In this document: in pieces, positions 41,095 through 54,542 of the stretch
How the letters are laid out: every line of letters starts with the position of its first letter
Numbering within the stretch: the stretch's first letter is position 1
NCBI GenBank assembly: GCA_963169355.1
Contig: CAUJCR010000002.1
Span: 124,001 to 188,000 of the forward strand
DNA length: 64,000 nucleotides
Direction of reading: 5' to 3'
Source: Bacteroidota bacterium
GTDB taxonomy: Bacteria > Bacteroidota > Bacteroidia > B-17B0 > Aurantibacillaceae
Position numbers and translations under genes: made by a program
Notes under the pieces: model-generated
What the model was told of the DNA's origin: nothing
What the model saw: the letters and a program-made list of their open reading frames with translations, nothing else
Database searches by the model: none

Positions 41095-44000
41095 TTATTT
41101 TATTCTCACCCCAATAATGGTAACATCGTCTATTTGCTCGAGTGTACCCACCCAATTATTAAAAGTAGTTTCCAATAGTTGATATTGCTCCTGCATTGGC
41201 AGATGGGCGTTTGTAGCTAATAATTCTCTCAAATTCTTACTCATAAATTTCTTTGCCTTCGGTCCTCCAAATTGGTCGGGAAAACCATCAGTTAGAGTAT
41301 AAATCACATCGTCTTTCTGAATTTCAAACTCATGTATGGTAAATGATTCCTCTTGCCTATCATGCTTGCCTACTGGCATTTTATCTGGTTTAACCTCTAT
41401 AACCTCTCCTGCTCTTACAATCCATACTGGATTATTAGCGGCTGCAATTTGTAATTTATTATGCTCTAAATCATATACGCAAAGACTACAATCCATACCA
41501 TCTTTACCGCCTTCTTCACTCCCATCTCTTTTAAGTCGTTCAATAATGGTTTTGCGAGTAGCATTAAGTATGTCGTGTGGTTTATTAAATTTCTCAATCG
41601 CTTTTTCTAAACTGGTAATATTTAATAAACTCATAATAGCGCCAGGCACACCATGCCCTGTACTATCCGCAGTAGCTAAAATAAATTGACCATTTGATAA
41701 TGTAGCACTCCAATAAAAATCGCCGCTTACCACATCTTTCGGTTTAAAAAACACAAAATAATTTTCAGACTTATGAGTTGCTGATTCAGAATTAAGATTA
41801 ACATCTAAATGTTGTTTGGTAGCTAAGAAACTACGTTGAATTCTTTCAGCATAATTTATACTATCCGTTATTTCTTTGTGTTTTTCTTCTATTAAATGTT
41901 TTTGAGCTACCACCTCGGCTGTACGCTCTTTTACAATCAACTCCAACTGGTTTTTGGCCTTTACTAATCGACGAACGCTTATTTTTATAATTACATAAAT
42001 GGTTCCTATAACAAGCAATACATATAAAGCATAAGCCCAATAGGTACGATACCACGGTGGTAGAATAATAAAAGAGAAGGACGATTCTATACTCTCTTCA
42101 TGATAATTATTTTTAGCTTTTACTCTAAAAGTGTAAGTTCCTTCTCTTAAATCAGTATATTCTTTATTATTCTTAGTTATCCAAGCAGACCATTCTTTAT
42201 CATACCCTTCTAATATGAAACTATATTGTAATTTATCTTCCGAACCATAACTTGTTGCAGAAAAATCAAAAATCATCGAATTATATTGATACGCGATTTC
42301 AGTCTTCTTTAACGAATCAACAAGATATCCTCTATAAATAGTAGAATCTTTATCTATCGTTACCTGACGTATCAAAGCATAATAAGGAATTGAAAAATCT
42401 TTCTTTACTCTGTCGTCATAACGCACAACGCCATCAGGGCCTCCCAACCATGTAATTCCATCTTCTTGTGGATAAATAGCATGAATTTCTCTTTCTACAA
42501 TTCTTAAAAAAGGCTGTGTGTGTAGAGAATATGAGCCATTAGATTGAGCCGTTGCCTCTAGTACAAGTTTCTCTCTTTTTCCAGAAACCGTAAACATCAA
42601 GGTAGTTAAACTATCCTTAGGTACAAAACGATAAATTTGTTTATCACGAAATGCATTACCATACAATTGCGATGGATAGAATCGCGATGTGTTTTTATTA
42701 AATTGATACAAACCCTGTGTTGTTGCAAAAACAAGTTGATGATTATATAAACGAGGAATATTATACTGCATATCTGGTAAGCCCTGCGATGTATCATAAT
42801 GATGAATAGAGTATGGCTGTCCCCAAGCAGTTAGGTTACTATTTTTAGACTTCTCAGTTTCTGAAAAATTAATTTGAAATATGCCATTTAATGGTGTGCC
42901 GAGCCAAATATTATGAGAGTCATCTTCGGCAATACTTCTTATTTCATCATCAATTCCTTCAAGATAGTCTTCATCAACCCATTGCTTGTTATCATAACGT
43001 ATAGAAGATACACCATCGGAATTTGCAATAAACAAGCGGCTTGTGTTTTGAGCAGACTGCATAAGATTAAAACTAAAACAGGATTTAATAAACTCTGCTG
43101 AGAACTGATTAATCTGGGCAATACCAGCCTCAGTAGCTACTAACAACAAAGTATCAGTTTGAGTATAGAATTTTTTTAATGCCCAAGATTGAACATTAAT
43201 GCCGTGTATAGGAACAAAATAATCGTTTACTGAACCATACACACCCAATGAAGTTGCTACATATAATATGTCTTTAAATTTAATTATATCATATACATAG
43301 CCAACTAATCCTTGTGCATCATTTAAAGTTGTTAATGGTGAAGACGCCTCAATGTGGGCTAAGCCATTAGCTAAAGCTACCCAAAAATCACCTTGAATAT
43401 CCGTAGTAATAAATTTTACAGCATCATCTCTTAATCCACATTTTTTATTAATTATACGGTTTAACTTACCTTGTTGGTCAATTATAATAACACCTCCTTG
43501 CAGAGTGGCAAAAGCAAATAATCCATTCTTTAATTTACAAGCTCCGTAAACTTGTTGGGCAATAAGTTCATTATTAACTTCGATATTCCACTCTCTAAAT
43601 AATTTATCCTGCGCAGCCTTCTTATCAAGAAACCATAATCCATTTTCTCTTGTTGCTATTAAATATTGATTGTCTGAATAAGCAACAATAGAATAAATAC
43701 GAACATCTTTAAAAATCTCAGCTCCTGGTAATAGAAGCAGTGAGTCATGAATAAGTTGTTTCAGTCCTTGACCACGTTCATTAATAAATAACTGTCCATC
43801 CACTTCAAAACTTAGATGAAATGATGTTGAAGGTTTCCACACTTTAACAGATTGGTTTTGTACTCTAATTAGTTTAGTAAAGGTTTGAAAATAAACTGCA
43901 TCACCTATAATATACGTTTTCCATACATCAGCAAAATTTCTTTCATTAATAGGTAATAAATTAACTAAAGAGGTATAAGATAATATGCCTTCCTTATTAG

Positions 44001-44331
44001 GAGCTAAGTAGCCAAATTCGCCCACAGCACCTACATAAATCACACCATCTTGGTTAATGGCAATAGAACGAACGATAGAAGCATTACTTACAGGGATAAG
44101 ACTCCATGTGCTCCCATCATATTCAAGCACTCCAGTTGAATTACCAAAGTACATAACACCGCGCTTATCTTGTGCCACCGCCCAATTATCTGGAGATTGT
44201 CCATATTCTGCTGGACTATAATTTCTAATAAAAGGAATGCCTTTTAGTTGTTGTGATAAACAATTTTGATCTAGCAGCAACAACAGCAAACAAGAAATTA
44301 TTGATATGTTGAACTTAACCCTCAAAGCCAA
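41095..44331 (-). CDS. propeller-Y_Y_Y sensor fused to SpoIIE-type PP2C phosphatase
   Basis: The 1078-residue protein has a signal or anchor helix (about 8-22) and a large periplasmic beta-propeller of Reg_prop type (repeats such as I-W-L-G-T-P-L-N-G-I and V-A-L-A-N-G-L-A). A Y_Y_Y domain follows (E-G-T-Y-T-F-R-V-K-A-K), then one membrane helix near 770-790 (Y-A-L-Y-V-L-L-V-I-G). A coiled coil (about 795-850) leads into a C-terminal SpoIIE phosphatase (S-G-D-F-Y-W, T-A-D-S-T-G-H-G-V-P-G, L-T-D-G-F-P-D). It replaces the usual histidine kinase with a Ser/Thr phosphatase. TTG is the only plausible start; a stop lies two codons upstream. Confidence 0.88.
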   Translation of the reverse strand: MALRVKFNISIISCLLLLLLDQNCLSQQLKGIPFIRNYSPAEYGQSPDNWAVAQDKRGVMYFGNSTGVLEYDGSTWSLIPVSNASIVRSIAINQDGVIYVGAVGEFGYLAPNKEGILSYTSLVNLLPINERNFADVWKTYIIGDAVYFQTFTKLIRVQNQSVKVWKPSTSFHLSFEVDGQLFINERGQGLKQLIHDSLLLLPGAEIFKDVRIYSIVAYSDNQYLIATRENGLWFLDKKAAQDKLFREWNIEVNNELIAQQVYGACKLKNGLFAFATLQGGVIIIDQQGKLNRIINKKCGLRDDAVKFITTDIQGDFWVALANGLAHIEASSPLTTLNDAQGLVGYVYDIIKFKDILYVATSLGVYGSVNDYFVPIHGINVQSWALKKFYTQTDTLLLVATEAGIAQINQFSAEFIKSCFSFNLMQSAQNTSRLFIANSDGVSSIRYDNKQWVDEDYLEGIDDEIRSIAEDDSHNIWLGTPLNGIFQINFSETEKSKNSNLTAWGQPYSIHHYDTSQGLPDMQYNIPRLYNHQLVFATTQGLYQFNKNTSRFYPSQLYGNAFRDKQIYRFVPKDSLTTLMFTVSGKREKLVLEATAQSNGSYSLHTQPFLRIVEREIHAIYPQEDGITWLGGPDGVVRYDDRVKKDFSIPYYALIRQVTIDKDSTIYRGYLVDSLKKTEIAYQYNSMIFDFSATSYGSEDKLQYSFILEGYDKEWSAWITKNNKEYTDLREGTYTFRVKAKNNYHEESIESSFSFIILPPWYRTYWAYALYVLLVIGTIYVIIKISVRRLVKAKNQLELIVKERTAEVVAQKHLIEEKHKEITDSINYAERIQRSFLATKQHLDVNLNSESATHKSENYFVFFKPKDVVSGDFYWSATLSNGQFILATADSTGHGVPGAIMSLLNITSLEKAIEKFNKPHDILNATRKTIIERLKRDGSEEGGKDGMDCSLCVYDLEHNKLQIAAANNPVWIVRAGEVIEVKPDKMPVGKHDRQEESFTIHEFEIQKDDVIYTLTDGFPDQFGGPKAKKFMSKNLRELLATNAHLPMQEQYQLLETTFNNWVGTLEQIDDVTIIGVRIK

Positions 44332-44540: not shown

Positions 44541-45431
44541 TTAAATTTTAATCGTGCTATTTTGTTTATCTAACCCACTGATAGCCACTCTTCTTGGATT
44601 TTTTGTATCATATTTAACAAACACCGTTTTTCCATTTTCAAGTTTATGCAAAGATGATTTAGGTGAAATCATAAACATCTCTTTTTCGAAAGGATCAATG
44701 CTTGTTCCTTTTACCAAGATAGTAACTTTCAAAATATTAATATCTGGCATAAAATCTTTGTAAACAATCTCACAACCTACTATTTCGGCAATACTATCAG
44801 CTCCCACAATGTTTAATTCATCTAATAAAGCCGAATCCAACTGTACTCTTTGCATTAAATCTGGAGGTGCAGCCTGTTGAGCATCAACTAAATCTTGGTG
44901 CGTGTAACTTAATCCTGCACCCATGTTTAGTGGATTATTTCCACCTAGCTTAGTATTATTTTGATCTAGAACAACTTTGCTTTTATCGTTGGGATCATAG
45001 ATGACTTTCATCTTTAATCCTGGTTGATACATCCCAAGTTGATTGATTGGAGTCATATGTTTAATTGTTGCTTGCCAAGTTTCGTTTTTATTACGAACAT
45101 TCACCTCAATCAACAATTGATAGTATTTTTTTGCATATATTGAAACAACCATACCTCCTTGCTGAGAAGAAATAATTGTAGCAATTGCCAATTTCCCATT
45201 TGGTATATCCTCTGATTTAATGAATTTTTTTGTTAATTTTTCACTTTTGTTCTTGTCAAACAAGCCAACGCCAGCTATTTTTTTCATGAAAAAGTTAATC
45301 ATCAAAATAATTAGTACAATAAAAATAATTGTACCAATAACAAAACCATTAGTACTTATATCAAAAGCAAATTCTGATAACAATAAATAAAATACCGCAA
45401 CAAATGCAAATCCTATAAAAAAGCCTTTCAT
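44541..45431 (-). CDS. hypothetical membrane protein with duplicated DUF3592-like segment
   Basis: The 296-residue protein has two N-terminal helices (about 3-22 and 30-48) and then a soluble part. Two related strands (V-I-Y-D-P-N-D-K-S-K-V-V-L near 162-175 and V-K-Y-D-T-K-N-P-R-R-V-A-I near 272-285) resemble the end of DUF3592-like beta domains, so the soluble part is probably two copies of one fold. No function can be named. It is a separate unit: a terminator and then a promoter lie between it and the giant gene upstream. Confidence 0.6.
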   Translation of the reverse strand: MKGFFIGFAFVAVFYLLLSEFAFDISTNGFVIGTIIFIVLIILMINFFMKKIAGVGLFDKNKSEKLTKKFIKSEDIPNGKLAIATIISSQQGGMVVSIYAKKYYQLLIEVNVRNKNETWQATIKHMTPINQLGMYQPGLKMKVIYDPNDKSKVVLDQNNTKLGGNNPLNMGAGLSYTHQDLVDAQQAAPPDLMQRVQLDSALLDELNIVGADSIAEIVGCEIVYKDFMPDINILKVTILVKGTSIDPFEKEMFMISPKSSLHKLENGKTVFVKYDTKNPRRVAISGLDKQNSTIKI

Positions 45432-45562: not shown

Positions 45563-48500
45563 TTATTTCATTATAATCAACTTTTTAACCAACATTTGTT
45601 TTCCAACTTGTATGTGAATGAAATAAATACCAGGACTATAATAATCCGTTGATACTTGCTCAACAAAATTTCCACTAAATCCTCTACTCTCAATTCTCTT
45701 AATATGTTTTGCTTGAGCATCTTTAATATCAATAGTGATATCTTCCTCCACTGGCAAGAAACCTTTTAAGGTAAATTGATCGCGTGCAGGATTAGGATAA
45801 AGTTCAAACCCACCAAGTGCTTTAATAATAGTAGTGGCTCGAGTAGGTATGCCTGTACTATCATTTTCGTTAAACCATCTAGCGTTGCCTCCTGCACCAA
45901 CAACAATCCCTTTTCCACCACCACCTTTCACTCTTAATGTACTTTGATCGCCTTTATTTCCTACAGAGTATCTAATCCAGTTGTTTCCATTATCAACCGA
46001 TTTATATACGATACCGCCTGTACCAGTTGCCCAAATAGTATCTGAACTTGCTACCTCAACACTATTAAAATCTACATCCACACCTGTTAGTGATGGCAAC
46101 CAATTTAAACCTCCATCAGACGTTTGTAAGATATTACCATTTGAACCAACTGCAAATCCATTTACTAAATCTGAGAAGCGAACATCTTTAATATGGAAGT
46201 TAATTGGCGAAGATTGTGCTGACCAGTTCGAACCGTCATACGCTAAGATTGTTTGATTATCTCCCACCGCAAAAGCATTTCCATTTGATAATTCAAAAAT
46301 ACCATTGAGGTGTTCTGTAGTACCCGAACTCTCAGGGGTAAATACAGTACCATTATATTTTTGAATGGTACCGTTTTTACCTACTATATGACCAAGTGAT
46401 GTACTTGAGAAATGCGAAGCGTTGATGTCTTCGGTTGTTCCAGTTGAAACAGGAGACCAACTGGCTCCATCATCTATTGATGTTAAAACTGTACCGTTTT
46501 TACCTGTTACGAACCATTTGCCTGGTAATGCGCAAGCTCCAGTTAATGGCACAGAATTACCTGTCGGTAATGGCGTAAACACTTTTCCACTATCAACACT
46601 TAATCCACAATTACCATCTGCTAAAGCAATAATTCCTTTAGTAGGGTCTTGGAACGAAACACCTGTAATATCAATAGTAGTACTAGTTACACTAGCATAA
46701 CTTGGGAATAATTGTTCTACCTCTATATAATCATTCTTAACTAAGGTTTTAGAACATCCTGCATTATCTGTTACAGTTAAAGATACTGTATGATAAGCTA
46801 TAGTATTATAAGTGTGGCTTGGGGCAGCTAAAGTAGAAGTTCCACCGTCACCAAAATCCCAAGCATACGTATAAGGAGGGAATCCAGTTGTATTTGCCGA
46901 GAATGTGGTTACCGCATTAGGAATAAACACTAACGTAGGAGTTCCTGTAAAATCAGCTAATGGATCATCTACCTCTACTGTAAAGCCTGTAGAACTTGTA
47001 CCACAATTATATATATTATAATTAGTTACACTATACGAACCAGCAACCAAAATGGCAACTGTTTGTGTGGTAGCACCATTACTCCATAAATAAGCATCGG
47101 CTACATCAGTTGATAGAATAACTGAATCTCCGATACAAATACTGCTCGGTCCTAGAGCTGTAATAGTAGGCGTTGATGGATTAGGATTTACTACAACTTC
47201 GATGCTCGCTGTTGTTGCAGCCGCACAACCATATAAATCATCTACCGATACGGAATATATTCCAGCTGTGGTAACATTAATGGTTTGTGTAGTAGCACCT
47301 GTACTCCAAGCATAATTTGTACCTGTGTTTGCCGATAACACAACACTTCCACCTGCACAGAATGTAGGAGAACTAGCAGGCGTAATACTTGCTACGCTTG
47401 GGGTATAAACTGTTACTGCAATTACAGATGATGTAGCTGTACAACTACCATTACTTACAGTTACACAATAATTATCACTAGTAGTTGCTGTTATACTCGA
47501 GGTTGTAGCGCCTGTATTCCAAGTATAAGAACTTGCTGATGAAGAAGCTACTAAATCAACACTTCCACCTACACAGAAAGTTGTGTTTCCAATGGCACTA
47601 ATACTTACTGTAGGCGTAGGATTTACAAAAATGGTTATCTCATCACTTGAAGAACAACCACCCGATCCTGCATTTACAGTATAAGTTGTAGTAATAGTAG
47701 GATTAGCCACAACCGAATAACCCGTATTGGCACTTAAACCAGAAGTTGGTGTCCAAGTATAAGTTGAACCTCCAGTTGCTATAATAGTTGTTGATTGACC
47801 TTCGCAAATAGTTTGGTCAACACCTGCATCTATTACTAAGCTGTTTGTTACAATAACAGAAACAACATCTGTAGCTGTACATCCATTATCGCCCACTATA
47901 ACAGTATATGATATTGTAATACTTGGATTTGCTACTGGAGAAGCACTATTTGGATTATCTAATCCAGTAGATGGTGTCCACGTATAAGTTGAACCACCCG
48001 TTGCTGTTAATGTAGCCGATGTTCCAGTACATATTGTAACATCATTACCCGCATTGGCTAAAGGAAGCGGAGTAACCGAAACAGTAACCACATCACTTGC
48101 TGTACAAGTACCATCACTAACGGTTAATGTTAAAGTTGAAGTGCTTCCTAATGTAGCTGTAGGCGCATAACTATTAGGGAAATCAAATACTCCCGAAGGA
48201 CTCCAAGTATATGTTGTTCCTGATGTTGAAGGATTCATCACGACTGAATTTCCTTGACATATAGATTGATTGCTTCCAGCATCTACCATAGGCAGTGGTT
48301 TTGCATTTACAACTACCACATCTGTAGAAACACATCCACCAGATGTTGTTACTGTTACAGTATAAGCTGTTGTGGTAGTTGTTGTTACTACCGGATTTGG
48401 AATGCCAGTATTACTTAATCCTTGTGGCGGACTCCAAACATAAGTAGCACCACCACTAGCATTTAAAATAGCGGAAGATCCATAACATAAATTTATATCA

Positions 48501-51500
48501 GATCCTGCATTTGCAAACGGGGTATTATCAACTGTTACAGTAACCACGTCGCTTGATACACAGCCACCGCTATTACTTGCCGTTAATGTATAAACGGTTG
48601 TAACAGATGGGTTAGCCGTAGGATTTGGAACATTCACATTATTTAATCCAGCCGAAGGTGTCCAAGTGTATGATGTGCCTCCACTTCCATTAAGCGTTGT
48701 AGAAGCACCAAAACAAACACTAACATCAGTTCCTGCATCTACATTAGGTAAAGGAGTAACCGAAACAGTAACTACATCGCTAGCAGTACAAGTACCATTA
48801 CTAGCTGTTAAAGTAAATATAGATGTAGAACTTGGTGAAGCAGTTGGATTTAAACTATAAGGGAAATCAAATGCACCAGTTGGATTCCAAGTAAAGGTTG
48901 TGCCCGAAGTAGTTGGGTTCATCATCACAGACCCACCATTACATATTACTTGATCTAATCCAGCATCTACAGTTGGTTTAGCTATTGCAAAAACTGTCAT
49001 TACGTCGGTAGATGAACAACCGCCAGCATTGGTAACCGTTACTGTGTAATTAGTAGTATTAGTTGTTGTTACAATTGGTGTAGCAATTCCTGGATTACTT
49101 AAACCAGCAGATGGCGACCACACATAACTTACCCCACCAGTGGCATTAAGCGTAGAAGACGAACCATGACAGAGATTAATATCTGGACCAGCATAAGCTG
49201 TAGGTGCTGTTTGAACCGTAACTAACACATTATCGTTTCTTACACACACACCATTACTCACGCTTACCGTATAATCTGTGGTTGAAGTAGGATTAACAAT
49301 TGGATTAGATACATTTGGATTATCTATATTGAACACTGGAGTCCAAGTATATGAAATGCCTCCAGATGCATTTAACCCTACCGAGTTTCCTAAACAAATT
49401 GTTACATCACTTCCAGCATTAGGTGTAGGAGGTGATACAACAGTTACATTAACTACATCGGTTGCTGTACAACTTCCATTACTTGCCGTTAAAGTATAAA
49501 CTGTTGTTCCATTAACATAAGGAAAGGCTTTTGGTGTCATGCTATTTGGATAATCAATAATTGGGTGAAATGTCCAACCATCAAAATAAGTAGTAGGCGA
49601 CCAAGTATAGGTTACACCTCCCGATCCATTTAATGTTACTGAATCACCCGAACAAATTGTTTTATCTAAACCAGCATTTACACTTGGCAATGATAATACT
49701 GTTACGTTTACTTCATCGGTTGAAGAACATGCTCCATTAGATACAGTTACAGTGTAAGTAGCATTTGTAGTAGTACTTACTACTGGATTAGCCACTGTAT
49801 TTGAACTTAATCCTGTAGCTGGTGTCCAAAGATAAGAAGTACCACCGCTCGCATTAAATGTAGTAGTTGAACCTAAACAAACTGATTTATCAGCTCCTGC
49901 ATTTGCTGTAGGAGCCGCTAAAACATTTACACGCACAACATCATCTTTCGTACAACCATTATTAGTTACAGTTACTGTATAATCTGTTGTGATAGTAGGA
50001 TTAGCAACAGGACTAGCAATATTAGTAGCACTTAATCCTGTGGCTGGCGTCCAGCTATACGAAGTACCTCCAGTAGCTGTTAAAGTTGTAGAGGCTCCAA
50101 TACACACGGTTGCATCGGTTCCTGCATTTGCTGAAGGTAAAGGCGTTACCGAAACTGTAACAATATCCTTTGCTGTACAAGTACCATCACTTACCGTTAA
50201 GGTGTAATTGGTTGTTGTAATAGGTGTTGCTGTTGGATTTGCACTATTAGGGAAATTTAATGAACCTGATGGTGTCCAGGTAAATGAACTACCTCCAGAA
50301 GCGTTAAGCATGGTTGATGAACCATTACAAATAGTTACATCAGATCCAGCATTAGCCGTTGGTAAAGATTTTACAGTAATAGTTACTACATCTACATCAC
50401 TACATGCACCATTACTAACGGTTAAGGTGTAGGTTGTTGTATTGGTAGTACTTACTACAGGATTAGCTGAAGTTGTAGAACTTAAGCCTTGTGCAGGCGA
50501 CCAATTATAAGTACCTCCACCCGAAGCATTAATGGTTGTATTTGAACCTATACATAAATTCAAATCAGGTCCTGCATTAGCCACAGGTGCCGCTGTTACA
50601 TTTACGGTTACCACATCCGTTTTACTACATCCATTTTGTGTTCCAGTAACAGTATAAATGGTAGTAACGGTAGGATTTGCTACAGGATTAGAAACGGTTG
50701 TGCTACTTAAACCAGTGGCTGGACTCCAACTATAACTTGTTGCTCCACTTGCATTTAATACAGTTGCATTACCGCTACATACTGTTGCGTTATTTCCTGC
50801 ATCTACTGTAGGTAAAGCATTTACAGTTATCGAATTAGTCATAACCTTTGTATCCGAACCAAACGCATTACTAACAGTTAAAGTAACACTATACACCCCA
50901 GGTGTGTTATATACCACATTAGGATTTTGAGTTGTACTTACAGAGGGCGTTCCTCCCGCAAAGGTCCAATTCCAACTTATTGGTGTATTGGTTGATTGAT
51001 CGGTGTAGCTTATTGCATTTCCAACACAAACAGTTTGCGTACTTACGCTAAACTGTGCTACTGGCGGATTTACAGAACACTGCGTGAACGTCGTCATTGC
51101 CGAACCATCATCTGTTCCCCCCATATAGGCATAAAACTGTGGAGGCGTGCCACATACGGTTGTAGTGTATGTAAGAAGAGATGAACCATCGTCTGTTCCA
51201 CCAAAATAAGCGTAAAACGCCGCAGGTGTACTACACACAGTTGTTGTATATGTAAGTAAAGCCGATCCTTCGTCGTTACCACCCATGTAGGCATAAAAAC
51301 TAGAAGGTGTTCCGCAAGCACTATAGGTTTTTGTATCGCTCGTTTTTAAATTTCCTGCGCCTCCAAAAAATGGAGAAAATTGTGGAGGCATAGCGCAAGA
51401 AACTAACGTATAAGTATCGGAGGTTTCAACATTTCCGTTACCTCCTATGTATTGAGCAAAACTAAGTGCAGGCAGAAGCAGGGCTAAACTTACCAAAAGG

Positions 51501-51523
51501 TGATATTTAGTTGCTTTTATCAT
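45563..51523 (-). CDS. giant adhesin-like protein: short repeats, PKD and Ig-like arrays, YCF48 propeller, type A T9SS signal
   Basis: The 1986-residue protein reads, in order: signal peptide (1-23); five short F-Y-A-Y-M-G-G-type repeats (about 25-150); PKD domain (152-237); 14 Ig-like modules of about 75 residues (239-1304), each with A-G-x-D, one Cys near its start and a second near its end; three divergent Ig-like modules (1305-1521); a second PKD domain (1522-1604; W-D-F-G-D-G-G). A YCF48/BNR-type propeller follows (1605-1895; repeats such as S-D-G-G-L-N-W), then a T9SS type A signal (L-Y-P-N-P-A-R-D). Paired cysteines suggest one disulfide per module. It is the last gene of an operon with two SUMF1-fold genes. 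A surface fibre or adhesin role is inferred. Confidence 0.88.
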   Translation of the reverse strand: MIKATKYHLLVSLALLLPALSFAQYIGGNGNVETSDTYTLVSCAMPPQFSPFFGGAGNLKTSDTKTYSACGTPSSFYAYMGGNDEGSALLTYTTTVCSTPAAFYAYFGGTDDGSSLLTYTTTVCGTPPQFYAYMGGTDDGSAMTTFTQCSVNPPVAQFSVSTQTVCVGNAISYTDQSTNTPISWNWTFAGGTPSVSTTQNPNVVYNTPGVYSVTLTVSNAFGSDTKVMTNSITVNALPTVDAGNNATVCSGNATVLNASGATSYSWSPATGLSSTTVSNPVANPTVTTIYTVTGTQNGCSKTDVVTVNVTAAPVANAGPDLNLCIGSNTTINASGGGTYNWSPAQGLSSTTSANPVVSTTNTTTYTLTVSNGACSDVDVVTITVKSLPTANAGSDVTICNGSSTMLNASGGSSFTWTPSGSLNFPNSANPTATPITTTNYTLTVSDGTCTAKDIVTVSVTPLPSANAGTDATVCIGASTTLTATGGTSYSWTPATGLSATNIASPVANPTITTDYTVTVTNNGCTKDDVVRVNVLAAPTANAGADKSVCLGSTTTFNASGGTSYLWTPATGLSSNTVANPVVSTTTNATYTVTVSNGACSSTDEVNVTVLSLPSVNAGLDKTICSGDSVTLNGSGGVTYTWSPTTYFDGWTFHPIIDYPNSMTPKAFPYVNGTTVYTLTASNGSCTATDVVNVTVVSPPTPNAGSDVTICLGNSVGLNASGGISYTWTPVFNIDNPNVSNPIVNPTSTTDYTVSVSNGVCVRNDNVLVTVQTAPTAYAGPDINLCHGSSSTLNATGGVSYVWSPSAGLSNPGIATPIVTTTNTTNYTVTVTNAGGCSSTDVMTVFAIAKPTVDAGLDQVICNGGSVMMNPTTSGTTFTWNPTGAFDFPYSLNPTASPSSTSIFTLTASNGTCTASDVVTVSVTPLPNVDAGTDVSVCFGASTTLNGSGGTSYTWTPSAGLNNVNVPNPTANPSVTTVYTLTASNSGGCVSSDVVTVTVDNTPFANAGSDINLCYGSSAILNASGGATYVWSPPQGLSNTGIPNPVVTTTTTTAYTVTVTTSGGCVSTDVVVVNAKPLPMVDAGSNQSICQGNSVVMNPSTSGTTYTWSPSGVFDFPNSYAPTATLGSTSTLTLTVSDGTCTASDVVTVSVTPLPLANAGNDVTICTGTSATLTATGGSTYTWTPSTGLDNPNSASPVANPSITISYTVIVGDNGCTATDVVSVIVTNSLVIDAGVDQTICEGQSTTIIATGGSTYTWTPTSGLSANTGYSVVANPTITTTYTVNAGSGGCSSSDEITIFVNPTPTVSISAIGNTTFCVGGSVDLVASSSASSYTWNTGATTSSITATTSDNYCVTVSNGSCTATSSVIAVTVYTPSVASITPASSPTFCAGGSVVLSANTGTNYAWSTGATTQTINVTTAGIYSVSVDDLYGCAAATTASIEVVVNPNPSTPTITALGPSSICIGDSVILSTDVADAYLWSNGATTQTVAILVAGSYSVTNYNIYNCGTSSTGFTVEVDDPLADFTGTPTLVFIPNAVTTFSANTTGFPPYTYAWDFGDGGTSTLAAPSHTYNTIAYHTVSLTVTDNAGCSKTLVKNDYIEVEQLFPSYASVTSTTIDITGVSFQDPTKGIIALADGNCGLSVDSGKVFTPLPTGNSVPLTGACALPGKWFVTGKNGTVLTSIDDGASWSPVSTGTTEDINASHFSSTSLGHIVGKNGTIQKYNGTVFTPESSGTTEHLNGIFELSNGNAFAVGDNQTILAYDGSNWSAQSSPINFHIKDVRFSDLVNGFAVGSNGNILQTSDGGLNWLPSLTGVDVDFNSVEVASSDTIWATGTGGIVYKSVDNGNNWIRYSVGNKGDQSTLRVKGGGGKGIVVGAGGNARWFNENDSTGIPTRATTIIKALGGFELYPNPARDQFTLKGFLPVEEDITIDIKDAQAKHIKRIESRGFSGNFVEQVSTDYYSPGIYFIHIQVGKQMLVKKLIIMK
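47612..50809 (-). repeat. fourteen tandem Ig-like modules with a three-module higher-order period
   Basis: The coding repeats are about 225 bases each. Modules 3, 6, 9 and 12 share a variant loop ending P-N-S or P-Y-S (for example D-F-P-N-S). Modules 2, 5, 8 and 11 share N-P-V-V or T-P-I-V followed by Thr-rich sequence, and modules 1, 4, 7, 10 and 13 share the A-N-P/V-N-P loop and mostly end in A-P or T-P. The unit of expansion was probably three modules (about 675-700 bases). Confidence 0.75.
51073..51451 (-). repeat. five short coding repeats at the adhesin N-terminus
   Basis: Repeats of 24-28 residues begin around F-Y-A-Y-(M/F)-G-G-x-D-(D/E)-G-S and end T-V-C-(G/S)-T-P, each with one cysteine. 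The last three are nearly identical; the first two are shorter and divergent (G-G-N-G-N and G-G-A-G-N). Confidence 0.75.
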
Positions 51524-51566: not shown

Positions 51567-53024
51567 TTATCTCACACCACGACCACCGTATGTGTAAGCT
51601 CTTGCGGATTGGTTATAGTTAGGATATGAACGATTAGCCATAACTGCATAACCAGCAGTGTTTACCCAACAGCCGCCTCTTAGTGTTACACCATTAGTAC
51701 CTGAATAAACAGGCCAAGTAGCAGCATCATAATTACCGTTTGCATCTAATGCACCATCTCCTTTAGTTCCATTAAAAGCAACTCCATTAGAGTTTCCAGT
51801 TGTAATGGTAGTTTCCCACACATTTCCGCTCATTTCCATCGCACCATAATAAGCAGCCCCTGCAGATGAACGACCAGAAGAATTAGTAGCAAAAATACCT
51901 ACTCTGCAAGGACCATAAGAACCTGAAGAAGAATTTACACCATATAAACAAGAACCATTTGAAACGGTTGATGTAAATTTCTCTGTAGGCATTAAAGCAT
52001 TCGTTAAATAACCATTTGCATTGTAATAATAAGTGATATCTGTAGATCCCCAAGCATATTCATTAGCTACTATTGGCATTGGTCCACGACACACTTTTTC
52101 GTACTCCAACTCGGTCATTGGTCTTAAAGCAGCCCAATCTAAATACGACCACACATCGGCAGATGATAACTTATTACAAGCAATACTTTCGCCATCATCA
52201 CCATTGCTATAACCTGTTACAGTACTTGCTCCACAAGCAAATACAGCTGGCAAAGCAGAGTTGTTACCTGGTGTTTGAATAACAATAGTGTTTCTATTAT
52301 TACCGCTTCCATTACTTGTTAATGCGTAAGTATTAGCTGGTGAATTTGGAGCCACATCCACACGAGTAGCTTGTTGAGTGTAGGTTAAAGAATTTAAGAA
52401 ATCAACATATTGTTGTTGTGTGATTTCGTATTTCATGCAATAAAAACTGTTGTATCCCATTGGATAAGTACTTGGAATACCTACTGAAGATCCTCCAATA
52501 GTTGCTGCCGTTAAACCTGATGATTGAGCAGCAGCATCAATGAGGGTAGCATTATATTGTCCGCCCTCAGAGCCTGCTCCACCTGCGGTGAAAGTCCCAG
52601 TTGGTACATGTACCATTTCTATTCCGTACACTTTATAGTTATACGTTCCAGCAGGCACATTTAATTTTAATGTGATATTTGTAGCTGAAATATTACCTCC
52701 ACCCACAGCACTACGACGAATAAAAACACCTTTTCCATCACTTACTGTTTCTATCATAAGAGGTGCTGCCGCTGAATGATCTCCAACAACAGTGCTTAAA
52801 TTAGCATGGCTCCATAATTGAGTAGCGCAATCTTGTATTTTCACAAATACCCACACGGCGTCCCAGTTATTGGGTGCATAATTGGTATTCCAACTATTTT
52901 CCCAAGATATTTTAAAAGATAAATTCTGTCCAGATACAGAAGGTGTAGTTACCGTTACATTGTTTGCCTGTGTATTAAATAAACAAGCCAACATACTAGC
53001 AATAATTAATGTAAATTTTTTCAT
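51567..53024 (-). CDS. exported SUMF1-fold protein, probably non-catalytic (copy 2)
   Basis: The 485-residue protein has a signal peptide (about 1-20), an N-terminal beta domain (21-140, with W-E-N-S-W-N-T-N and N-N-W-D-A-V-W-V-F-V-K) and a SUMF1/FGE-sulfatase domain. The last shows Y-C-M-K-Y-E-I-T-Q-Q-Q-Y, R-P-M-T-E-L-E-Y-E-K-V-C-R, M-S-G-N-V-W-E, L-R-G-G-C-W and the end G-G-R-G-V-R. True formylglycine-generating enzymes need a pair of active-site cysteines near the G-G-S-W strand. Here one Cys is present and the second is missing, so enzyme activity is doubtful. It starts 45 bases after copy 1 and ends 43 bases before the adhesin gene. Confidence 0.82.
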   Translation of the reverse strand: MKKFTLIIASMLACLFNTQANNVTVTTPSVSGQNLSFKISWENSWNTNYAPNNWDAVWVFVKIQDCATQLWSHANLSTVVGDHSAAAPLMIETVSDGKGVFIRRSAVGGGNISATNITLKLNVPAGTYNYKVYGIEMVHVPTGTFTAGGAGSEGGQYNATLIDAAAQSSGLTAATIGGSSVGIPSTYPMGYNSFYCMKYEITQQQYVDFLNSLTYTQQATRVDVAPNSPANTYALTSNGSGNNRNTIVIQTPGNNSALPAVFACGASTVTGYSNGDDGESIACNKLSSADVWSYLDWAALRPMTELEYEKVCRGPMPIVANEYAWGSTDITYYYNANGYLTNALMPTEKFTSTVSNGSCLYGVNSSSGSYGPCRVGIFATNSSGRSSAGAAYYGAMEMSGNVWETTITTGNSNGVAFNGTKGDGALDANGNYDAATWPVYSGTNGVTLRGGCWVNTAGYAVMANRSYPNYNQSARAYTYGGRGVR

Positions 53025-53069: not shown

Positions 53070-54542
53070 TTATCTCACACCTCGACCACCAACATTATAA
53101 TTTCTACTGTTTGGATTATTCCATTGCGAGTTTGTTCGATCTGCAAGTCTAGAGTATGTAGCTGCATTATACCAATCGCCTCCTCTTATACCCATTCCAG
53201 AAGTGGTTGGCCAAGAAGCTTGATTCGCACTTCCATCCACAGTTAAATTCCCATCTCCATTATTCCCTGTATAAGCTGCTCCAGCAGCATTTCTAGTACT
53301 CACAATATTTTCGTATAAATTACCGCTCATCTCCATTACACCATAATAGGTAGCTCCTGAAGATTCTCTACCCGTTGTTGATTCAGCAAAAATTCCTACC
53401 CTCAAAGGGCCATAAGCCACATTAGCATTTCCAAGACCATAAGCGCAACGACCATTTGATACTGTTGAAAATTTTTCGGTAGTTGTATTAACGTTTGTCA
53501 TACCACCCAAGGTATTATAAACTTGATAAATATTAGTTGAACCCCAAGCGTATTCATTAGCTACGGCTGGCATTGGACCTCTACAAATTTTTTCAAATTC
53601 CATATCCGACATTGGACGAAGAGCAGCCCAATCTAAATACGCGTATAAATCCATAGGACTTAAAAAATTACATGCAATGTTTTGTCCATCATCAGAATTA
53701 TTTTCAATTGTTGAGGTTAAGTCATTAGCATATACCGCTGGTATAGCCGCGTTTGAACCCGGAGTTAAGATTATTATACCATTACGATTGTTATAACTCG
53801 AACCTGCCTGCGTGCCGAAAGCATGCGTATAAGCAGCAGAAATCGGATCATAGTCGGTACGAGTAGCTTGCTGAGGATAGGTTAATGTATTTAAAAAATC
53901 AACGTATTGTAATTGCGTTAATTCATATTTCATGCAATATAGGGCATTATAACCCATAGGATAAGTATTAGGAATAGCTACCGAAGATCCTCCTAAGCTA
54001 GCAGCCGATAAACCAGAAGATTGTGCCGTAGCATCTACCACAATACTATTGTAACGTGTAGATTCACTCCCTACGCCTCCAAGATTAAATGTACCTTGAG
54101 GTACACTTACCATCTCTAAACCAAATACTTTATAGTTATAAGTACCTGCCGGAATGGTCATTTTAAGCGTAATAGAAGCATTACTAATATTACCCGACCC
54201 AACTGCCGAACGACGGAGAAACACGCCTTTACCATCACCCACTGTTTCAACCATTAATGGAGAAGCCGCCGAATGATCGCCAACGGTTGTACTTAATGAA
54301 GCATGATTCCATAATTTAGTATTACAATCTTGGTATTTTACAAATACCCAAGCGGCATCCCAGTTATTTGGTGCAATGTTGGTATTCCAACTATTTTCCC
54401 AACTAATCTGAAAAGTAATGTTTGTGCCCGATACCGAGGTATTTGTAATGGTGAGGTTATTGGCTCTCATTCCCACAATACCACCTAGTATCAGACTAAT
54501 GAAGAGTACAAATGATGTTTTCATAGTTTGTAAGGTTTTCAA
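53070..54542 (-). CDS. exported SUMF1-fold protein, probably non-catalytic (copy 1)
   Basis: The 490-residue protein matches the next gene along its length: same N-terminal W-E-N-S-W-N-T-N domain, same A-L-Y-C-M-K-Y-E-L-T and R-P-M-S-D-M-E-F-E-K-I-C-R motifs, same G-G-R-G-V-R end. The strand that is G-G-C-W in the sister protein reads G-G-D-W here, so neither active-site cysteine is present. The signal peptide is clearest from Met7 (54522-54524), which may be the real start. It is the first gene of the operon, behind a good promoter. Binding or structural use of the C-type-lectin-like fold is more likely than catalysis. Confidence 0.82.
   Translation of the reverse strand: MKTLQTMKTSFVLFISLILGGIVGMRANNLTITNTSVSGTNITFQISWENSWNTNIAPNNWDAAWVFVKYQDCNTKLWNHASLSTTVGDHSAASPLMVETVGDGKGVFLRRSAVGSGNISNASITLKMTIPAGTYNYKVFGLEMVSVPQGTFNLGGVGSESTRYNSIVVDATAQSSGLSAASLGGSSVAIPNTYPMGYNALYCMKYELTQLQYVDFLNTLTYPQQATRTDYDPISAAYTHAFGTQAGSSYNNRNGIIILTPGSNAAIPAVYANDLTSTIENNSDDGQNIACNFLSPMDLYAYLDWAALRPMSDMEFEKICRGPMPAVANEYAWGSTNIYQVYNTLGGMTNVNTTTEKFSTVSNGRCAYGLGNANVAYGPLRVGIFAESTTGRESSGATYYGVMEMSGNLYENIVSTRNAAGAAYTGNNGDGNLTVDGSANQASWPTTSGMGIRGGDWYNAATYSRLADRTNSQWNNPNSRNYNVGGRGVR

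Follow-up and report, generated by a model that had tools for sequence, protein, structure and literature searches.

The 64,000-nucleotide window analysed here, a stretch of a Bacteroidota genome assigned to the family Aurantibacillaceae, encodes a protein of 1986 aa in which 14 tandem Ig-like modules repeat with a period of three, as A-B-C blocks, and whose orthologues differ in length by whole trimers of modules. These features are best explained, with a probability of roughly 0.82, by a T9SS-exported, stalk-like protein in which the length of the Ig rod has been changed mainly by unequal recombination between A-B-C blocks, within a frame of flanking domains that stays fixed.

The array gene and its product

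The array gene occupies positions 45563-51523 on the minus strand, as delimited by its open reading frame and by domain scans. From the N-terminus, its product comprises a signal peptide, short N-terminal repeats, a PKD domain, and the 14 Ig-like modules, followed by three divergent Ig_7-like domains (46964-47608, minus strand), a second PKD domain, and a YCF48-type propeller with a T9SS type A sorting domain (together 45563-46708, minus strand). Module boundaries were set by cutting the protein at a repeated start motif, which gives modules of 75-76 aa, except for module 6 at 86 aa. The modules span aa 240-1305, or window positions 50806-47609 on the minus strand; the initial annotation had the same number of modules but placed them at 47612-50809, and the 11-residue insertion it described in module 6 is real and recurs in module 6 of the orthologue L038.

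The protein passes the cut-off of PF19081 (Ig_7, CHU_C-associated Ig-like domain) with 79.1 bits over the whole protein against 27.3, that of PF18962 (Por_Secre_tail) with 38.2 bits against 27, and that of TIGR04183 with 29.9 against 23, and the T9SS translocon SprA is encoded in the same genome. An AlphaFold2 model of modules 10-12 consists of three confident beta-sandwich domains (mean pLDDT 95, pTM 0.73). From the sorting domain and the domain make-up, an extracellular stalk is likely; the protein would be displayed outside the cell, at the surface or extracellularly, with a rod that may set reach or presentation distance. The scan of the array protein returned Ig_7, PKD, YCF48-type propeller, and sorting domains only, and "adhesin" is kept here as a putative label with an unproven binding function. 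At 1986 aa, the protein is mid-sized for its family.

The N-terminal repeats are 27 aa (81 bp) long and of the type F-Y-A-Y-x-G-G-x-x-D/G-G, with five in the window (about 51059-51457) and, by eye, about three in L039 and six in L035 and L036. The gene thus varies in length at another site too, independently of the array. The Ig/PKD region of the array protein has matches in more than 20 further long open reading frames of the 3.2 Mb genome (72 matches), so that a single genome encodes a large family of Ig-array proteins of the T9SS type, and a search for homologues on plasmids gave distant Ig matches only.

A period of three within the array

The likeness of every third module, noticed by eye in the initial annotation, holds when measured over the whole array. 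Mean protein identity between modules is 46% at a lag of one and 44% at a lag of two, but 56% at a lag of three, and it remains at 52% and 55% at lags of six and nine. Within-class identity exceeds between-class identity by 0.090 in the protein (permutation spread 0.018, z 4.2, p 1.5e-4) and by 0.051 in the DNA (p 5e-5), and the same permutation test gave negative values, none of them significant, for periods of two, four, and five in the window array. A self dot-plot of the DNA (60 b windows with at least 68% identity) agrees, with 492 matching windows at a distance of three modules and 263 at six, as against 171, 21, 48, and 84 at distances of one, two, four, and five; the peaks at single offsets fall at 675, 684, and 708 bases, close to the 675-700 bases that had been predicted.

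As the distinguishing loops and strand of the initial annotation had been picked by eye, the signature columns were removed and the period retested; it persists (p 0.0002), and is present in the N-terminal and C-terminal halves of the module taken separately (p 0.0055 and 0.0041, respectively). The features themselves proved somewhat less exclusive than described. The Thr-rich strand is found in exactly modules 2, 5, 8, and 11. The P-N-S/P-Y-S loop does occur in modules 3, 6, 9, and 12, yet is not private to them, as module 13 also has PNS, and the A-N-P/V-N-P loop of modules 1, 4, 7, 10, and 13 is shared by module 14, which has ANP (a pattern match in module 3 falls in a different loop). The signal is carried by codon positions 1 and 2 and is absent at third codon positions (p 0.18), which argues that the A-B-C pattern is old.

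Module classes and trees

Four trimers can be laid out along the minus strand: modules 1 (A), 2 (B), and 3 (C) at 50132-50806; modules 4 (A), 5 (B), and 6 (C, with the 11-residue insertion) at 49424-50131; modules 7 (A, divergent), 8 (B), and 9 (C) at 48743-49423; and modules 10 (A, divergent), 11 (B), and 12 (C) at 48059-48742. In a tree of the 14 modules, the C modules form a clade (79/99), as do the B modules without module 14 (84/80), and AU tests reject clades of adjacent modules (p-AU 0.009 for modules 1-3, 0.012 for 4-6, and 0.0001 for 8-10), so the modules do not group by adjacency. In a wider tree of 54 modules from seven orthologues, window modules 3, 6, 9, and 12 join L038 modules 3, 6, and 9 in a C clade (100/99), and window modules 2, 5, 8, and 11 join L038 modules 2, 5, and 8 in a B clade (94/89).

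The A class is less well defined. Modules 1 and 4 group with their L038 partners (97/82), modules 7 and 10 are divergent, and module 10 lacks a close partner. A tree constrained to hold modules 1, 4, 7, and 10 and L038 modules 1, 4, and 7 as a single clade is worse by only 0.35 log-likelihood units. Three clades had been expected, and two of these, B and C, were recovered; A was found for modules 1 and 4 alone, and its extension to 7 and 10 is not rejected. By these trees A is not a resolved clade, which counts against the explanation favoured here.

Modules 13 and 14 (47609-48058, minus strand) stand outside the A-B-C scheme as a conserved terminal pair. Module 13, previously assigned to the A class, groups instead with the penultimate modules of other species (L038_10, L035_4, L036_7, and L040_7; 86/77), and module 14 groups with L038_11, the last module of L038 (98/95). 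Because both group with the end modules of other species, the array is best written as 4 x [ABC] + 2. The A, B, and C classes of the window's genus correspond weakly and inconsistently to those of the second group; either the trimer may have had separate origins or its classes may have blurred.

Orthologues and changes by threes

With the non-repetitive C-terminus (propeller and T9SS tail) as query, six orthologous loci were found in other genomes, two of them also within the window's genus; a search of 87 + 395 + 36 + 395 genomes for further orthologues returned, beyond these seven, remote propeller relatives only. Orthology is confirmed by the neighbouring genes. A gene of the FGE-sulfatase fold upstream of the array gene (51567-53024, minus strand) has one homologue at the same place in all six loci, and a SpoIIE/Reg_prop/Y_Y_Y regulator gene downstream (41095-44331, minus strand) is likewise conserved in six of six.

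Some details of this neighbourhood are particular to the window. Two FGE-sulfatase-fold genes lie in tandem (51567-53024 and 53070-54542), and both match the single FGE gene of the six loci; they probably represent a local duplication in which 53070-54542 is the less diverged copy. A DUF3592 gene (44541-45431) separates the array gene from the SpoIIE gene. None of the six loci has a counterpart of it, and there the SpoIIE gene comes soon after the array gene; the DUF3592 gene seems to have been inserted in this lineage or lost in the others. A tandem repeat of 18-21 bp is present at 45303-45366.

The number of Ig modules varies widely, with 2 in L039, 5 in L035, 6 in L037, 8 in both L036 and L040, 11 in L038, and 14 in the window. 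The divergent Ig domains that follow number three in each orthologue except L037, which has two, so the total Ig counts are 5, 8, 8, 11, 11, 14, and 17, all of the form 3n+2. This rule was spotted post hoc in a small sample of seven orthologues, and L037, whose six modules of the first type are not 3n+2, fits it only if the lost Ig of the second type is counted. The naive probability that all seven totals obey it is 0.0014; parsimony on the gene tree requires at least five length changes, and with steps taken at random modulo 3 the probability becomes about 0.004. In L040 (L040:4578-8219), the reading frame breaks inside the propeller and homology runs on past the break, consistent with either a frameshift or an assembly error.

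Pairwise comparisons show that whole trimers have been gained or lost between species. The difference between L036 and L035 is the cleanest three-module difference, as modules 1, 2, 3, 4, and 5 of L035 match modules 1, 2, 3, 7, and 8 of L036 at 85-92% identity, leaving L036 modules 4-6 as extra; both proteins have little internal period of three, so trimer homology is not an obvious cause of this difference. Window modules 1-7 and 11-14 have matches in L038, which is missing one trimer's worth. In L037, modules 1 and 4 are 89% identical and modules 3 and 6 are 87% identical, with third-position identities of 0.65-0.75 as against 0.58 for other pairs, which suggests a younger, recent-looking duplication of modules 1-3 into 4-6.

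These changes may be gains or losses. The initial annotation had proposed that the array grew by copying three modules at a time, and the three-module unit is upheld by module similarity, trees, and orthologues; the word "grew" is harder to sustain, as losses fit some of the differences at least as well. In at least two orthologue pairs, the additional modules do not closely copy those next to them, which makes the loss of three modules as likely as their gain. An analysis of the breakpoint inside L038 module 8, aimed at deletion versus duplication, gave no sign of an a-to-b split (p 0.41), and neither option was favoured by AU tests. In its non-repeat parts, the window copy has evolved about four times faster than L038 (end branches of 0.62 vs 0.15).

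Other Ig arrays of Bacteroidia

Among 70 module runs from Bacteroidia, most of them gathered with trimer-length queries and some related to each other, clear super-repeats were found at lag 3 in eight arrays, at lag 2 in two, at lag 4 in two, and at lag 5 in one. A detrended lag-3 peak is positive in 47 of the 70 (sign test p 0.006), and in 41 of 64 when the window family is left out (p 0.03). The strongest trimer period belongs to L110, a 41-module member of a second family (0.66 vs 0.54 at lag 3, z 10.8); a third family is also trimeric (L067, z 4.6; L093, z 5.2), and L118, L122, L137, and L164 have trimer super-repeats as well; those of all these other arrays are independent of the window array and count in favour of the explanation preferred here. 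Other spacings occur too, including a period of five at 83% identity in L117 (22 modules) and clean period-4 super-repeats in L167 and L125. Among these 70 arrays, period three is the most frequent super-repeat, as a tendency and not a law.

Two more general ideas did not hold. A strict rule of copy number by threes for all arrays, stated beforehand, failed in the second family, where orthologues of L068 have 15, 24, and 41 modules. Avoidance of similar neighbours as a guard against misfolding (an idea from PMC4660218) is not general, since adjacent modules are at least as alike as the average in most arrays.

Mechanism and alternative explanations

In the favoured explanation, unequal recombination would take place between modules three apart, which are the most alike, so that a whole A-B-C block would be added or removed, repeatedly, while the N-terminal domains, the two-module end pair, the three divergent Ig domains, and the C-terminal propeller would be kept as a fixed frame. 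The period of three, its age, and the whole-trimer differences between species are established by sequence comparison; recombination between every-third modules is the mechanism that we infer from them.

Selection could act in place of a shared duplication unit. If three successive Ig domains made up a single turn of the structure or a single contact in an assembly, as may be the case in a filament such as GhpA, positions three apart would share the same surroundings and converge, and counts in threes would keep the ends in phase. The 3n+2 totals, the three-module difference of L035 and L036 without strong trimer homology, the recurrence of trimer periods in unrelated arrays, and the confinement of the signal to codon positions 1 and 2 are all in keeping with such selection, and the closest relative of solved structure is an extracellular hook made of several chains, a heptamer (PMC11205867). 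The period nevertheless extends over the full module, also in columns that lie outside the loops, and appears in the DNA offsets; moreover, the second family has counts of 15, 24, and 41, and arrays with periods of two, four, and five exist, so that convergence of this kind seems unlikely. It is similarly improbable that the 3n+2 rule itself reflects a structural phase, with three Ig_7 domains per rod or filament repeat and only whole-trimer changes keeping the end assemblies in register; were it true, it would account for the predominance of period three among the super-repeats of these Bacteroidia arrays.

Concerted evolution, with gene conversion still acting between modules three apart, would likewise yield a lag-3 peak without old trimer duplications, and module 5 of L037 looks partly converted toward module 4 (84% identity, vs 69% to module 2). 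Window modules, however, pair with L038 modules of the same position and not with each other in 10 of 11 pairs, most with bootstrap values of 98-100, and third positions have no period. Together, these two observations argue that the period is old and that the window protein has seen no recent homogenisation; conversion was rejected for this protein on account of the pairing by position across species, and it is very unlikely as the source of the period. Just as unlikely is chance, in which single and multi-module duplications happened to mimic a period of three in one protein. Many related arrays do have no period or another one, and the second family breaks the count rule, but the permutation test puts the period in the window protein at a p of about 1e-4, and differences between species in whole threes lend independent support.

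Comparison with known systems

The giant adhesins SiiE, MpAFP, and RTX adhesins are secreted by type 1 systems and stabilised by Ca2+. SiiE, the RII region of MpAFP, and RTX adhesins are built as long rods in which Ig-like beta-sandwich domains follow one another in tandem (PMC5466336, PMC4083281), a design shared by the window protein, which differs in having a T9SS tail and in that a binding domain was not found in the domain scan.

Super-repeats in which several domains were copied together are already known, and the present case is an unusually clear species series. A survey of domain repeats by Bjorklund, Ekman, and Elofsson in 2006 described multi-domain duplication units, including the seven-domain super-repeat of nebulin (PMC1553488). 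Autocorrelation was the method there too. As in those super-repeats, module similarity is highest at one set spacing of domains, and several domains expand together inside the repeat region. Unlike the Ig domains of the proteomes surveyed there, which expand by one or two, the bacterial Ig_7-type array described here changes by three, and whole-trimer differences between species are seen directly. A series of species with zero to four trimers in an otherwise constant gene and neighbourhood makes it possible to follow length changes in a bacterial Ig-like rod, and the wider set of arrays suggests a preference for threes in Bacteroidia, as against the growth by one or two of that survey.

In both sequence and fold, the nearest proteins of solved structure are pieces of GhpA (grappling hook protein A) from Aureispira sp. 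CCB-QB1, with structures in PDB entries 9flp, 9fls, 9flu-9fly, and 9g8b (Lien et al. 2024, cited in PMC11205867). GhpA is matched by the profile of the module family with an E-value of 1e-240 and by the window protein with 2.4e-129, and the seven best Foldseek matches are all GhpA entries. A profile of the trimer tiles end to end on GhpA, which was discounted as evidence of a period of three. GhpA forms a heptameric extracellular hook that is secreted by T9SS and attaches to prey flagella (PMC11205867). The modules of the two proteins are homologous, belonging to the same Ig-like family by sequence and fold. GhpA, at 5898 aa, is three times as long as the window protein, which has a YCF48 propeller at its end and is not known to form oligomers or to act as a hook. 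This link makes the question of a structural phase testable on existing cryo-EM entries.
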